Shown here: piece by piece, positions 14,656 to 33,744 of the stretch
How the letters are laid out: every line of letters starts with the position of its first letter
Numbering within the stretch: the first letter of the stretch is position 1
Translations under genes and position numbers: made by a program
Origin: Ignavibacteria bacterium
Lineage (GTDB): Bacteria; Bacteroidota; Ignavibacteria; UBA10030; SZUA-254
Assembly (NCBI GenBank): GCA_016178625.1
Contig: JACOSX010000112.1
Coordinates: 1-46,701 of the forward strand
Reading direction: 5' to 3'
DNA: 46,701 nt
Notes under the pieces: generated by a model
Database searches by the model: none
Told to the model about the DNA's origin: nothing
The model's input: the letters and a program-made list of their open reading frames with translations, nothing else

Positions 14656-15984
14656 TCAAACATTTTTTATGGAATGCTTAACAGCGTGTTTGGAGGGTGT
14701 TCCGTTCGACGGAGTGATGTGAAATTGTTGTTCCTCCGTTGAACCCGTAAGCGCCAGGGTGGATGAAGATCCATTTGTGATGACTTGGGTGAGTTCATCA
14801 AAAAACCCTGTGCCCACGAACTCCTGATGTCTGACGGCTTTATAGCCGGAGATTTCACTGTTAAATTCGGTCTCCTGGAAGTCAGCGTATGCAGTCATTC
14901 CCCACTCTCGATATGCTTGAGCGAGCTTGAACATGGAATGGTTGAGGGCATGGAAGCCTGCAAGGGTTACAAATTGAAATCTGTAACCCATCGTAGCAAG
15001 CTCCTTTTGGAACTTCGCGATTGTGCAGGAATCCAGTTTCAGTTTCCAGTTGAACGATGGGGAGCAATTATACGCGAGAAACTTGCCCGGATATTCTGCG
15101 TGGATCGCAGTGGCGAAGCGATGCGCTTCCTCAAGGTTCGGTTCCGAAGTTTCACACCAGATCATGTCGGCATACGGTGCGTATGCAAGACCTCGAGAGA
15201 TGGCAGCATTCAACCCACCACGCATGACATAAAATCCTTCCTGTGTCCGTTCACCTGTAAGAAATGTATGATCTCTTGGATCGATATCGCTGGTGATCAA
15301 TTGAGCACTATTGGCATCCGTTCTCGCAATGAGGATTGTCGGAACATCGAGAATATCAGACGCCAATCGTGCAGCGACCAATTTTTGAATGAATTCCATT
15401 GTCGGCACCAACACCTTGCCACCCATGTGTCCGCATTTTTTTGCAGAAGCCAATTGATCCTCAAAGTGTACCCCGGCAGCACCTGCTTCAATCATCCCTT
15501 TCATCAATTCAAAGGCATTAAGACAGCCGCCGAAGCCGGCTTCGGCATCTGCGACGATCGGCGCAAACCAATCGATATCGGTTTTACCTTTTGCATGCTG
15601 AATCTGATCTGCGCGGATGAAAGCATTGTTGATTTTGCGGACAACCGTGGGCACACTATCGACAGGGTAAAGACTTTGATCGGGATACATCTGCCCCGCG
15701 TTGTTAGCATCTGCCGCGACTTGCCACCCACTGAGATAAATCGTTTTCAAACCTGCCTTCACCTGTTGGATAGCTTGATTCCCTGTCAGTGCACCTAACG
15801 CTGCCACATATGGTTCTGTATTCAGCAACTCCCAGAGTTTCCTGGCACCCATCGTTGCGAGAGTATTCTCGATGTGAACCGATCCACGGAGCCGGTAAAC
15901 ATCTTCGGGAGAATACGCTCGGATAATTCCTTTCCATCGTTCCTCTGTTTGCCATCGCTGGCCAAGTCCATTGTTTTGATGCAT
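14656..15984 (-). CDS. aceA: Isocitrate lyase
   Basis: The protein has 442 residues, within the normal range. It splits isocitrate to glyoxylate and succinate, the first step of the glyoxylate shunt. The catalytic motif KKCGHMGGK places the active-site Cys at 184. Other family segments are [45 protein letters not shown] and [13 protein letters not shown]. It lies 26 bp after aceB on the same strand, so the two shunt enzymes form an operon that allows growth on acetate or fatty acids. No aceK or IclR-type regulator is present. Confidence 0.97.
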
Positions 15985-16010
15985 GATCTTCGCTCCTCAA
16001 GGTTTATTGT

Positions 16011-17606
16011 CTAAAGATATTCATAAGCGGGTAAGGTGAGAAATTCAACAAATTCTTCCTGAGTAACAATTCGATCAAAAAGTGTTGCCGCCAACTCAAA
16101 TCTGCCTTCACGAAAGCGTAGATCCCCCACCATTGTGCGAATGTTTTCCAGCTCCTCTCGTATCGTTTGACGAACCGATTCAACAGTAATATGTTTCCCT
16201 TCCACCGTCGAAATATTATGATGAATCCACTGCCACACTTGTGCCCGAGAAATCTCAGCAGTCGCGGCGTCTTCCATCAGATTGTACAACGGGACTGCGC
16301 CCGCTCCTCTGAGCCACGCTTCGAGATATTGGATGCCGACATCAATATTCGTTCGAAGTCCTTGTTCTGTAACTGGTCCTTCAGGCACAGCAAGAAGATC
16401 GTTCGCTGAGATTACGACGTTCTCGCGTTGAATGTGTACCTGATTGCTTCCTTCCATCCGTTCATCAAATACCTCTTTCGCGACAGAGACCATCCCCGGG
16501 TGAGCGACCCATGTTCCATCGTGACCCTCATGGACTTCGCGCTCTTTATCTGCCCGCACTTTATGAAATGCCATCGTATTCGCTCCGTCATTATTTTTCA
16601 CCGGAATCTGTGCTGCCATTCCTCCCATCGCGTGGGCGCCTCTCTTATGGCATGTCTGGATCAATAGTTTCACATAGGATGCGAGAAAGCCTTTGTCCAT
16701 TGTGATGCTCGAACGATCAGACAAAACAAAAGAACGGTATTTATGGAATTTCTTGATGAAGCTGAAGATATAATCCCAGCGTCCACAGTTCAAACCCGCA
16801 GAATGCTCTCGTAGCTCATAGAGGATCTCATCCATTTCAAATGCGGCGAGAATTGTTTCAATAAGAACAGTCGCTTTGATGGTTCCGCGTGCATTGCCAA
16901 GCTCGTTTTCGGAGAAGGTGAACACATCGTTCCATAGACGCGCCTCGAAGTGGTTTTCTATCTTGGGAAGATAGAAATATGGTTGTGTGCCTTTCCTTAG
17001 AAGATCGAAGGTGTTGTGATAGAAAAATATCCCGAAGTCGAAGAGGCTTGCAGAGATTGGTATGCCATCGACATAGACATGTTTTTCATGTAGGTGCCAC
17101 CCTCGAGGGCGCATCATCAGCACTGCGACTTTTTTATTCAGCTGATAGTTCTTACCATCGGGGCTGATGTATTGGATGGTTCCTCGAATAACGTTGCGAA
17201 GATTTAGTTGGCCGCGAAGAGTATTCTCCCATGTCGGGGATTGAGCATCTTCAAAATCTGCCATGTATACATTTGCCCCGGAGTTCAGTGCGTTAATGAC
17301 CATTTTCGTGTCACCTGCCGGTCCGGTGATCTCCACCCGACGATCATGAAGTTCAGATGGAACCGATGCGATTGCCCAGGAAGAATTCCGAATATGTTTC
17401 GTCTCTGACAAGAACGAAGGTAATTTCCCATGATCGATTTCGATTTGCCTCTCAGCCCTTCGTCGCAATAATAGCTCACGTTGCCTGGAGAACTGTCGAG
17501 ATATTTTCGCCACGAACCGCAAGGCATCGGCAGTCAAGAATTCAGAAAATTCCGGAGCGATTGTTTCGCGGACCTCGATTCCTTCCTCAACAAGAGACGG
17601 TATCAT
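16011..17606 (-). CDS. aceB: Malate synthase A
   Basis: 531 residues from the ATG at 17606. It condenses glyoxylate with acetyl-CoA to malate. Signature segments are RRVEITGP, MADFEDAQSPTWEN, the catalytic Arg in MMRPRGWHL, PYFYLPKIENH, GTIKATVLIET, FEMDEILYELREHSAGLNCGRWDYIFS, and LMEDAATAEISRAQVWQW with the catalytic Asp. An ATG at 17711 would add 35 residues. I prefer 17606 because family members of the E. coli AceB type begin about 15 residues before the conserved APEF...LT segment. Neither start has a clear Shine-Dalgarno sequence. I found no promoter of the recurring type upstream. Confidence 0.95.
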   Translation of the reverse strand: MIPSLVEEGIEVRETIAPEFSEFLTADALRFVAKISRQFSRQRELLLRRRAERQIEIDHGKLPSFLSETKHIRNSSWAIASVPSELHDRRVEITGPAGDTKMVINALNSGANVYMADFEDAQSPTWENTLRGQLNLRNVIRGTIQYISPDGKNYQLNKKVAVLMMRPRGWHLHEKHVYVDGIPISASLFDFGIFFYHNTFDLLRKGTQPYFYLPKIENHFEARLWNDVFTFSENELGNARGTIKATVLIETILAAFEMDEILYELREHSAGLNCGRWDYIFSFIKKFHKYRSFVLSDRSSITMDKGFLASYVKLLIQTCHKRGAHAMGGMAAQIPVKNNDGANTMAFHKVRADKEREVHEGHDGTWVAHPGMVSVAKEVFDERMEGSNQVHIQRENVVISANDLLAVPEGPVTEQGLRTNIDVGIQYLEAWLRGAGAVPLYNLMEDAATAEISRAQVWQWIHHNISTVEGKHITVESVRQTIREELENIRTMVGDLRFREGRFELAATLFDRIVTQEEFVEFLTLPAYEYL

Positions 17607-17711
17607 TGTGGAACGCGTTTCATTGTGCTCTTGGATTTGGTCGGCTGGTACTGTTCGGTCTAATTCATTGATGGCTAAATGCACTTCACTGTTCTCCCAT
17701 TCATGGTACAT

Positions 17712-29668: not shown

Positions 29669-31916
29669 AACAATCTCTGAAGCATTTGAGCCAAAAGTAG
29701 ATATTGAGCTTGCACTGAAGCATGGTCTAATAGAAGAAGAGTACGAGAAGATCCTTTCCATCCTCGGTAGAGTTCCAACCTACACGGAACTCGGAATTTA
29801 CAGTGTCATGTGGAGCGAACATTGTAGCTATAAGAATTCTATTGCGGAGTTGAAAAAATTGCCTCGGAGTGGAGAGAGACTCTTAGTAAAGGCAGGGGAG
29901 GAGAATGCAGGTCTCGTCGATATTGGCAATGGTTATGCGATTGCATTCAAGATCGAGAGCCATAATCACCCCTCAGCTGTTGAACCTTACCAGGGTGCCG
30001 CTACAGGGGTGGGTGGAATTATGCGAGACATCTTCACTATGGGAGCACGACCCATTGCAGCGTTAAACTCACTTCGTTTTGGAGACCTTGCTAACCCAAG
30101 GACGCGTTACTTGCTCAAAGGTGTTGTCAAAGGAATCGGAGACTATGGAAATAGTTTTGGCGTACCTACAATTGCCGGAGATGTTTATTTCGACGAATGT
30201 TATAGCGAGAATCCACTTGTCAATGCAATGGCGGTCGGCATCGTCAAGCACGATGAGATCGCTCGTGCGATAGCCAAAGGTCCCGGCAACATCGTGATGA
30301 TCGTTGGGTCATCAACAGGCAGAGATGGCATCCATGGGGCGACCTTCGCTTCGGAGGAAATTTCGGATGAGTCAGAGAGTAAGCGACCTTCTGTTCAAGT
30401 TGGAGATCCATTCACAGAAAAATTATTACTCGAAGCAACACTTGAAGTAATTCGGGCCGGCTATGTTGTTGGCATACAAGATCTGGGCGCTGCTGGAATC
30501 ACTTGTTCAGCTTCTGAAATGAGTGCGAAGGGAAGCTGCGAAATGGAAATCGAATTAGATCGCGTGCCGATTCGTGAAAAAGAGATGACGGGGTACGAGA
30601 TTATGTTGTCGGAATCCCAGGAACGAATGTTGCTGATCGTTCTACCCAGCCACGAACAGGACGTCAGACAAGTTTTTGAAAAATGGGATCTTCGATGTCA
30701 GACGATTGGCAAGCTGAAAGAGGGTAATGCCCTTCGAGTTAATTACAAAGGTGAACGAATTGCCGAAGTCCCAGCTCAGAGCTTGGTTCTTGGGGGAGAT
30801 GCTCCGGTCTATTACCGTGAGAGCAAAGAGCCAGAGTACATACAGCATCTGAGAAAATTTGATCCCAACTCCTTGCCGGAGCCTACTGATTACAATGAAT
30901 CTCTTCTCAAACTTCTTGAGTCTCCAAACATCTGTTCTAGACGATGGATCATTTCTCAGTACGATACGATGGTCCGCACTAACACGATAATTGATGTCAT
31001 TGGTGATGCGGCAGTTATTCGACTTAAAGAATTCGAAAAGGCACTAGCGGTAAAGACTGACTGTAATGCTCGGTACGTATTTTTGAACCCATATAAAGGT
31101 GCTCAAATTGCTGTTGCTGAGAGCGCGAGAAATGTTGTTTGTGTTGGCGCTAGACCATTGGCGATCACGAACTGCTTGAACTTCGGAAATCCGTACAAAC
31201 CCGATATCTACTGGCAGTTTAAGGAGTCGGTTCGTGGAATTGCTGATGCCTGCAATGTGTTAAACACTCCGGTTACCAGTGGAAATGTCAGCTTCTACAA
31301 TGAAAGTCCAGATGGATCAATTTATCCGACCCCAATCATCGGCATGTTGGGTGAGATCAATGACGTCTCGAAAGTCATCTCGGCAGATTTCAAGAACAAA
31401 GGAGATATAGTTCTTTTACTCGGGCAAACCATAGGTGATATCGGTGGCTCGGAATACCTTAAGGTCATCCACGGAAAGGTTTGTGGTGATGCACCTTCCA
31501 TCGATTTATATATAGAGAAACGGCTCCATGAAGCCTGTCTTGAGATGATAAATCTTAGTATAGTTAAATCAGCTCACGACTTGAGCGAAGGAGGATTAGC
31601 TGTGGCATTAGCTGAGTGTAGTCTTTTTGCATTTGCAAAAGGGAAATCACTCGGTGCATCTATTAGCATACCGCGTCCAATGCGAACAGACTTCGCTTTG
31701 TTTTCAGAAGATCAGTCAAGAATTTTGGTTACAGCTTCTGAGACAAACCTCCCTAAGATTAAAGAAATCTCGCAACGGCATCAGGTTACTGTGAGAATGC
31801 TTGGGGAAGTAATTCAGGATCGCATTGAGGTTAGGGAAAAAATCAATCTATCAGTTAGGGAAGCATCTATCGCATATTATGGAAGCCTGGAGAGGAAGGT
31901 GGGAGTTTCTTCATGA
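29661..31916 (+). CDS. purL: Phosphoribosylformylglycinamidine synthase subunit PurL
   Basis: 751 residues from the ATG at 29661. Upstream TTG at 29637 is rejected because it would overlap the carrier gene further and adds non-family sequence. PurL uses ATP and glutamine-derived ammonia to make FGAM in purine synthesis. The small form seen here works with PurS and PurQ, which are not in the window. Motifs are [48 protein letters not shown], the second-half repeat [27 protein letters not shown] and AHDLSEGGL. It ends the plus-strand cluster. Confidence 0.96.
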
Positions 31917-32001: not shown

Positions 32002-32160
32002 CTATATTCCTTTCTTATCGTCGCTTTCCCTCATTTTAAAATATACGAGTAGAATTGTTACTATAAGCATGAACGTTATCACCACAAACAAAGTGATACG
32101 AGTGCCGATGTCAGGTATGCCAGCAAATGTATTTGCATGTTGGCTGAGTGTGTCTCTCAT
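32002..32160 (-). CDS. Small single-pass membrane protein of the cytochrome b locus
   Basis: 52 residues. Start ATG at 32160 has GAGGA 5 nt upstream and follows the cytochrome b stop by 7 nt. One hydrophobic helix (about 22-41, ITLFVVITFMLIVTILLVYF) is followed by a charged tail (KMRESDDKKGI). This suggests an N-out, C-in membrane protein. The size, layout and position resemble small accessory subunits of respiratory complexes such as the PetG/PetN or CcoQ/CcoS proteins. There is no sequence identity that I can recognise. A role in the Rieske/cytochrome b complex is an inference from its position and translational coupling. Confidence 0.7.
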   Translation of the reverse strand: MRDTLSQHANTFAGIPDIGTRITLFVVITFMLIVTILLVYFKMRESDDKKGI

Positions 32161-32167
32161 AGCTTCC

Positions 32168-33253
32168 TCAGGTTAAATAGGCTAAGCTTATAGCAATAAT
32201 CACATAAAATATCGCAACGACACCTATCCATGTAAAACCGGAGCTATACTGTTCCATCCTCGCCTTTCGATCAATCATTGGTGTCATCAATAGGAATGCG
32301 CCCGCAATTCCTACACAAACATTCACAATTGTTTCACTATTAACTCCCAAGATAGCGGCAGGTACTATCCTGAGGGTTTGATACAAGGTTAAGAAATACC
32401 ATTCAGGTTTAATCCCGACCGGTGCTGATGCAAATGGATCAGCCTTCGGCCCGATTTGGACGGGAAAGATAAGACATAACCCGAACAGGAGTATGAGTGC
32501 GGCGATCCAGGCAATGGCATCTCTAAAGAGATAGTTTGGGAAGAACGGGATCGGTTCTCTTAGGGAACGGATGCCGATGGGTATACTTGTTCCATGAACT
32601 TGATTTAAAATCAGATGAAATAATACAACCGCTAATGTTATCAACGGCAGAATGACTACATGTAATGCAAATAATCTCTTAAGACTTTCCTCATCAATGA
32701 ATTCTCCACCACGCAAGAGACGAACAATAAATTCCCCCAGGACCGGAATGCTACGAGGAATCTCTGTGCCAATCTGTGTTGCGAAATACGCTGTTGTATC
32801 CCAAGGAAGTAGATAGCCTGTAAATCCAAAGCCTAGCACAAGAAACAGCAAGAATACGCCGCTTACCCACATCAACTCGCGAGGTTTGCGGTATGCTTTC
32901 ATAAAGTAAGTGCTGAAGAGATGAAGGATCACGGTTGCTATCATTAGATTAGCTGACCAACTGTGCAGAGACCGTACAAGCCAACCGAAGGAAACCTGAT
33001 TAACAATCACTCGGACACTTTCATTCGCGGTGTTAGGTGTAGGACTATAATACAAGAGCAACAAGATTCCCGTTACGATTTGAACGATAAAGAAGAAGAG
33101 GGCGAGCCCACCGAACAAATACCAAAATGAATACTTATGTCGCGGGACCAACTTCTTCGCGAGCAAATCGATAAGGGGCTTTAACCGCAATCTATCTTCA
33201 ATCCAAACGCGAGAAGATTCTCTAAAATGAAGCCACGATGGTCGAATTATCAT
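32168..33253 (-). CDS. Cytochrome b of a Rieske/cytochrome b complex
   Basis: This 361-residue protein has about eight membrane helices and holds two b hemes and the quinol site. Heme ligands are H97 and H111 and then H198 and H213. The 15-residue step of the second pair is that of b6-type proteins (14 in mitochondrial-type cytochrome b). GFTGYLLPWD and the quinol-site motif PEWY (283-286) are intact. Helices normally split between cytochrome b6 and subunit IV are in one chain here. It lies 19 bp after the Rieske gene. No cytochrome c1 or f gene is linked, as is also known from green sulfur bacteria. Confidence 0.93.
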   Translation of the reverse strand: MIIRPSWLHFRESSRVWIEDRLRLKPLIDLLAKKLVPRHKYSFWYLFGGLALFFFIVQIVTGILLLLYYSPTPNTANESVRVIVNQVSFGWLVRSLHSWSANLMIATVILHLFSTYFMKAYRKPRELMWVSGVFLLFLVLGFGFTGYLLPWDTTAYFATQIGTEIPRSIPVLGEFIVRLLRGGEFIDEESLKRLFALHVVILPLITLAVVLFHLILNQVHGTSIPIGIRSLREPIPFFPNYLFRDAIAWIAALILLFGLCLIFPVQIGPKADPFASAPVGIKPEWYFLTLYQTLRIVPAAILGVNSETIVNVCVGIAGAFLLMTPMIDRKARMEQYSSGFTWIGVVAIFYVIIAISLAYLT

Positions 33254-33272: not shown

Positions 33273-33716
33273 TCAAATTCGTGATATGATTATGTCACCT
33301 TCTTTGATATCAACCTTGAAGGGCTGCAATGGTCTCGGAGCTGGTCCTGAGATGTTCCTCCCTTCAAGGTCAAATTCACTCCCATGGCAGTTGCAGTGGA
33401 ATACCTTTCGATCTGATTGATATTGAACGATGCAACCAAGATGAGTACAAACGGCAGAAAGCGCCCGAACTTGTCCCTGCTCCGACTTCAACAATGCTAT
33501 TGCTTGCTTGTTGAACTTAACAATTTTGGCGCTTCCGACAAGAAGGTCTGCTTCTTTTGCAACATGCATACTTTCCAATATTCGATCTCGAATCTTTGAA
33601 GGTAGTGCGTACTCAACCATACCATACAACACTGGAAGTACTGAAATAGAAATCCAACCAGTCAGTGCTTGAGATAAAAAATTTCTTCTTGATATTTCCT
33701 TATCTTGTGCTGTCAT
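33273..33716 (-). CDS. Rieske iron-sulfur protein
   Basis: 147 residues from the ATG at 33716. A TTG at 33740 would add 8 residues. A twin-arginine-like start (SRRNFLSQ) and one membrane segment suggest Tat-dependent insertion. The 2Fe-2S site is complete: CTHLGC (C90, H92, C95) and CNCHGS (C108, C110, H111). The Cys at positions 90 and 108 and the His at 92 and 111 bind the cluster, and C95-C110 form the usual disulfide. It passes electrons from quinol at the cytochrome b site to a c-type carrier or another acceptor. It is co-transcribed with dapF upstream. Confidence 0.94.
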   Translation of the reverse strand: MTAQDKEISRRNFLSQALTGWISISVLPVLYGMVEYALPSKIRDRILESMHVAKEADLLVGSAKIVKFNKQAIALLKSEQGQVRALSAVCTHLGCIVQYQSDRKVFHCNCHGSEFDLEGRNISGPAPRPLQPFKVDIKEGDIIISRI

Positions 33717-33744
33717 ATTCTTTTGGTGCAACGAATTCAATTGA

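Follow-up and report, generated by a model that had tools for sequence, protein, structure and literature searches.

Rieske/cytochrome b complexes that work without a heme subunit of the cytochrome c1 or f type are poorly known. In Kuenenia, multiheme cytochromes take the place of cytochrome f in such complexes, according to the accessible part of the published description (PMC12954380). AlphaFold3 models of two of these complexes, in the same part of that source, set the helices of dissimilar multihemes at the same position, in line with a fixed anchor site. No headless form is reported there. Caldithrix possesses c1-less Rieske/cytochrome b pairs, for which multihemes are proposed as the acceptors (accessible part of PMC5317091). 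Across the accessible parts of both papers (PMC5317091, PMC12954380), a small subunit is mentioned for neither multiheme-bearing nor c1-less complexes, a weak absence, most subscription papers lying outside the search.

Gene cluster and the small protein

The window, the whole stretch of DNA that was analysed, is 46,701 nt long and belongs to an Ignavibacteria genome of 3.36 Mb. The features of the cluster are listed in window coordinates.

32002..32160, minus strand: gene of a 52-residue single-helix protein, putative headless anchor subunit (open reading frame, translation, conservation downstream of cytochrome b, purifying selection, predicted helices)
32035..32037, minus strand: Lys42 codon, 21 residues past Arg21 (first basic residue after the helix)
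32038..32097, minus strand: predicted membrane helix, residues 22-41 (hydropathy 2.85; AlphaFold2 helix 18-49)
32098..32100, minus strand: Arg21 codon, pairing with the first Arg of FRRxGL in multiheme anchors (invariant in the alignment)
32113..32115, minus strand: Pro16 codon, opening the P-x4-R motif (alignment)
32165..32169, minus strand: Shine-Dalgarno-like GAGGA that overlaps the stop codon of cytochrome b (sequence)
32168..33253, minus strand: fused cytochrome b, PetB plus PetD-like, 361 aa (Pfam PF00033, PF13631, PF00032; HX13H/HX14H and PEWY motifs)
33273..33740, minus strand: Rieske [2Fe-2S] protein, whose gene opens the Rieske-cytochrome b-small gene cluster (Pfam PF00355)

The 52-residue frame is a real, conserved gene. 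Translated from 32002..32160 on the minus strand as MRDTLSQHANTFAGIPDIGTRITLFVVITFMLIVTILLVYFKMRESDDKKGI, followed by the stop codon. The cytochrome b stop, TGA, occupies 32170-32168; the ATG of the small gene follows at a distance of 7 nt, at 32160, with GAGGA 4 nt ahead of it. No terminator-like site is found between the two genes. The next gene downstream, purL-like (end at 31916), is convergent, which makes the small gene the last of the cluster. When the downstream region was simulated by 20,000 first-order Markov sequences, 2.2% had by chance an ATG no more than 20 nt away that opened a frame of at least 45 aa; none had one whose frame also reached a 19-residue hydropathy of at least 2.5. 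A spurious frame is ruled out by conservation and by dN/dS.

Two helices are predicted (AlphaFold2, 11 relatives), a weak N-terminal one at residues 3-11 and a long one at 18-49, with a break at the GIPD motif. The block of residues 21-40 has pLDDT values of 94 and 96. CxxCH motifs are absent from the 52 residues, and no Sec signal peptide is discerned by eye. Pfam, NCBIfam and the PDB hold no family matching the protein, and no relative of the small family is present among the solved structures. COX4_pro_2 (bacterial aa3 oxidase subunit IV) was rejected as an assignment, scoring 14.1 bits against a cut-off of 22, with the window protein its only match among 22 family members.

The HX13H, HX14H and PEWY motifs of the cytochrome b lead one to expect hemes b and a quinol site. 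No Cys occurs at the b6 heme-ci region of this cytochrome b. Upstream, 4 nt separate the annotated Rieske gene from dapF (diaminopimelate epimerase, PF01678; 33745..34635, minus strand), which makes cotranscription of the respiratory cluster with this biosynthetic gene possible. Elsewhere in the window, adjacent isocitrate lyase-like and malate synthase-like genes (14656..17711, minus strand) form a putative glyoxylate shunt pair, as read from sequence.

The genome as a whole encodes a heme-copper oxidase as well as cytochrome c domains, including one on an open frame of 155 aa. It also contains two extra bc-type loci (G000:C73:12198-13825 and G000:C116:2945-6301; L002-L004, L147, L148). A b6-like cytochrome b is accompanied by a 323-aa SUIV-cytochrome c fusion with two CxxCH, and a further bc-type cytochrome b has as neighbours a membrane protein of 294 aa and an open frame of 864 aa with several cytochrome c domains.

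Distribution and conservation of the small gene

Relatives of the cytochrome b were drawn from two sources, 98 genomes of the order and a collection covering 84,980 species, and the slot after each cytochrome b was read. The resulting cytochrome b tree has 106 rows. The clade of the window (branch support 98/93) has 25 cytochrome b genes, and 24 are followed by a small gene encoding 42-177 aa; in family f10 the small gene is present in 13 of 13 genomes. Small-gene relatives are 46-66% identical in cytochrome b. Where the start is clear, the small gene of the relatives begins -4 to +19 nt from cytochrome b. The Rieske gene is upstream of cytochrome b in nearly all of these loci too. Genes of CxxCH proteins are found in the flanks of none of the true small-gene loci.

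The sole clade cytochrome b without the small gene is that of L010 (L010 / L150, G042:C28). An integrase-like open frame lies about 150 nt on, and no small gene is found further along the contig within the stretch read. The integrase-like frame is perhaps part of a mobile element that displaced the small gene.

Searched with an HMM of the small protein, 395 genomes of the phylum give five strong matches, all adjoining Rieske/cytochrome b genes. Matches L124-L126 (E 3e-4 to 7e-4) have no cytochrome b beside them and are regarded as chance. Sixteen genomes with a related cytochrome b (Chlorobiota, Calditrichota, Acidobacteriota and others) yield 0 matches at E<=0.001, with a profile short enough to miss divergent members.

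Members of the family measure about 42-180 aa and combine P-x4-R with a single membrane helix and a charged tail. An alignment of 22 of them shows Pro16 and Arg21 in every sequence, with identity to the window protein otherwise ranging over 10-54%; L136, a relative outside this set, carries Leu at the Pro position. Arg is separated from the first Lys or Arg after the helix by 21 residues in 21 of 25 proteins and by 20 in the remainder. No CxxCH motif is found in any small-gene relative. In L037, L040, L043 and L049 an N-terminal hydrophobic stretch is present (e.g. MAYYIIFIIWIWLL), which may represent either a signal peptide or a further helix.

The frame is under purifying selection in relatives, the genus of the window having no second sequenced species among the genomes covered. 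Counting-based dN/dS values for close pairs are 0.02 (L128/L129), 0.10 (L127/L128) and 0.09 (L008/L016); sites are saturated in distant f1 pairs, whose ratios are uninformative. In frame, mean pN/pS is 0.32; the two remaining frames, both interrupted by stops, give 1.04 and 2.38. The core sequences of 17 relatives tested are free of in-frame stops.

The first-pass annotation had described, 7 nt past the stop of cytochrome b, a well-formed gene (GAGGA, ATG, one helix, charged tail), and the coordinates, the Markov controls and the conservation bear this out. It had counted absence from relatives, or lack of purifying selection, against such a gene; the frame is conserved throughout the clade apart from L010, and dN/dS lies at 0.02-0.10 in the closest pairs of relatives. 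A conserved single-helix protein, coupled to the Rieske/cytochrome b pair and matching no described family, is thus what is found. Annotation gains a family absent from Pfam and NCBIfam, recognisable by its place behind cytochrome b, a length of about 42-180 aa and the pattern P-x4-R-helix-K.

The multiheme cytochrome in the same slot

In 65 of the 106 tree rows the slot after cytochrome b is occupied by a multiheme c-type cytochrome instead. These proteins are 415-526 aa long and carry 8-11 CxxCH as well as a signal peptide; their one helix is C-terminal. The heads match Pfam Cytochrom_c3_2 or Paired_CXXCH_1, and the C-terminus has the form FRRxGL-helix-LKIRxIE (K/R..IE following the helix). 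Slot multihemes occur in Ignavibacteria, Acidobacteriota, Aminicenantes, KSB1, Omnitrophota and others. No homolog of this subunit is found in the genome of the window. Many genomes hold both complexes (G002, G003, G006, G007, G032, G042, G054, G342, G134). In some Rokubacteria and Gemmatimonadota (L051, L096, L110), a multiheme with the FRRxGL-helix-K anchor is encoded upstream, near cytochrome b and outside the slot; the gene order of the complex therefore varies.

The co-occurrence bears on whether the small protein is a subunit at all. A separate factor coupled to the complex, for instance one that assembles or inserts cytochrome b or the Rieske protein and is not a stoichiometric subunit, would fit the small size and the position directly after cytochrome b. 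It is given a very slight probability: in sister complexes a structural subunit fills the slot, and the multiheme-bearing complexes of the same genomes do without a separate small gene.

Aligned with hhalign, the profiles of the small proteins and of the multiheme anchors match in register over the helix with a score of about 29-31 (29.0 at E 1.7e-6). Controls reach at most 23.95 (100 block-shuffled anchors), 18.5 (reversed anchor), at most 14.8 (six cytochrome b helices) and 6.9 (Rieske helix). A second alignment with 27 anchors gives a probability of 87.8 over 38 gapless columns. In the gapless alignment Arg21 is matched by the first of the two Arg in FRR, with Lys42 in register as well. The two families differ in detail. 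The Pro of the small proteins is not present in the anchors, which have Asp, and the spacing from Arg to the basic residue is 20-21 in the small proteins versus 21 or 23 in the anchors.

Searches in both directions agree. The best ten non-self matches of the small profile among 820 helix-bearing open frames are all multiheme cytochromes; the multiheme proteins of this background are interrelated, which makes hypergeometric P values optimistic. Among the ten best non-multiheme frames found with the anchor profile, seven are small proteins, the window protein being third. Multihemes are not retrieved when the Rieske helix or cytochrome b helices serve as the profile. One cytochrome b helix profile has ten small proteins among its top twenty, at low scores, helices being noisy.

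Intermediate plans occur in the small family. L036 (89 aa) has a signal-peptide-like N-terminus, about 40 heme-free residues and the anchor, and L009 has the same plan. L013 (177 aa) likewise, with about 100 low-complexity residues between signal peptide and anchor. The small proteins of f1, f5 and f10 possess a short N-terminus only. Judging from the relatives with signal peptides, the N-terminus of the small protein is, with good support, placed in the periplasm.

On these comparisons the helix of the small protein is probably homologous to the C-terminal anchor of the multihemes. An unrelated supernumerary subunit, arisen de novo or recruited, could also stabilise or assemble the complex in the manner of PetG/L/M/N or CcoQ, its resemblance to the anchor (a basic residue at each end of the helix) being convergent. 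Gene coupling and conservation fit such a subunit equally well, and similarity confined to a helix is a weak sign of common origin: the best PDB match of the anchor profile is the helix of human EGFR (E 0.006), a warning of convergence for single helices, and the best prokaryotic one is Paracoccus cytochrome c1, at E 1.5 only. It is nevertheless considered unlikely, as it would leave to coincidence the slot shared with the multiheme gene, an in-register alignment better than all controls, the reciprocal HMM picks and the relatives that retain signal peptide, linker and anchor. Furthermore, the Arg at the outer end of the helix in both families defies the positive-inside tendency and is unlikely as a shared accident.

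The direction of change is read from the cytochrome b trees. Rooted with an outgroup of five cytochromes b from the same order, whose branches are long and supports moderate, the tree places the small clade (92/84) as sister to Chlorobiaceae (88/86), inside a paraphyletic, poorly resolved multiheme group. Nested among multiheme-bearing lineages in this way, the small clade is explained more simply by loss of the head than by its gain. The reverse course, in which the multiheme arose by fusion of a heme-bearing head to an ancestral small helix subunit, agrees with midpoint rooting of the 106-row tree, where the small clade is set against all others and is not nested. Only a slight probability is given to it, since outgroup rooting nests the small clade in a paraphyletic multiheme group spread across many phyla, the sister Chlorobiaceae have no small gene at all, and signal-peptide and minimal forms are intermixed within the small clade. 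The forms would make a dated chain from multiheme through linker-only to minimal anchor.

Proposed role and comparison with known systems

The small gene is rather likely to encode the third subunit of a quinol-oxidising Rieske/cytochrome b complex, a headless homolog of the multiheme anchor. Gene order and co-conservation are what suggest its membership in the complex. The idea of a third, single-helix subunit, put forward in the first-pass annotation, is likely right. Its analogy with PetG/PetN or CcoQ is replaced: no Pfam match to PetG, PetL, PetM, PetN or CcoQ (FixQ) is obtained for the window protein (E<=1) or for any of the 22 members (E<=0.1), and the comparison points to the multiheme C-terminal anchor of the same slot. 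No c-type cytochrome gene lies near the loci; where the first-pass annotation saw a missing cytochrome c1 or f, a lost heme-bearing head is the better reading.

A heme-bearing subunit would once have occupied the slot; its head would have been lost and the anchor helix retained as a structural helix. The helix would pack on cytochrome b at the anchor site of the multihemes, perhaps also that of c1 and f, and may keep either the dimer or the Rieske neck in position. The Arg common to the outer ends of small proteins and anchors suggests a specific contact. Menaquinol would be oxidised at the outer site. The Rieske head would pass one electron directly to a soluble acceptor, e.g. a cytochrome c feeding the heme-copper oxidase, and the second electron would cross the membrane via hemes bp and bn, as usual. 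These bacteria may thus run a Rieske/cytochrome b complex without a c-type heme subunit, the anchor helix being kept. More tentatively, bc-family complexes in general could keep one cargo-independent site for an anchor helix on cytochrome b, whether the cargo is c1, cytochrome f, a multiheme or nothing, with a role of the helix itself at the dimer, the quinol site or the Rieske neck, and with no bound c-type heme in the present complex; this generalisation is possible but doubtful. A bare-anchor subunit would split two roles fused elsewhere, cohesion of the complex and taking of the Rieske electron, and would make the first testable alone.

PetG, PetL, PetM and PetN of the b6f complex and CcoQ of the cbb3 oxidase resemble the small protein as short single-helix subunits of respiratory or photosynthetic complexes; they differ in giving no profile match. 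The complex of green sulfur bacteria has a cytochrome b sister to that of the small clade (88/86) and no adjoining gene of a c1 or f subunit, but the small gene occurs neither after cytochrome b nor elsewhere in three Chlorobiota genomes. Cytochromes c1 and f of bc1 and b6f complexes are likewise anchored by an outside-in C-terminal helix of a c-type heme subunit; unlike the small protein they have a monoheme head, and sequence similarity is not significant. The Kuenenia complexes differ in hexa- or octaheme heads, split b6/SUIV and NAD(P) reductase subunits, as given in the accessible part of their description (PMC12954380). The multiheme subunit of Rieske/cytochrome b complexes differs from the window protein in its heme motifs, head and signal peptide and in size (415-526 versus 52 aa); it agrees with the small protein in the slot after cytochrome b, the N-terminus outside, and the C-terminal helix with a basic residue before it and Lys/Arg and an acidic residue after it.
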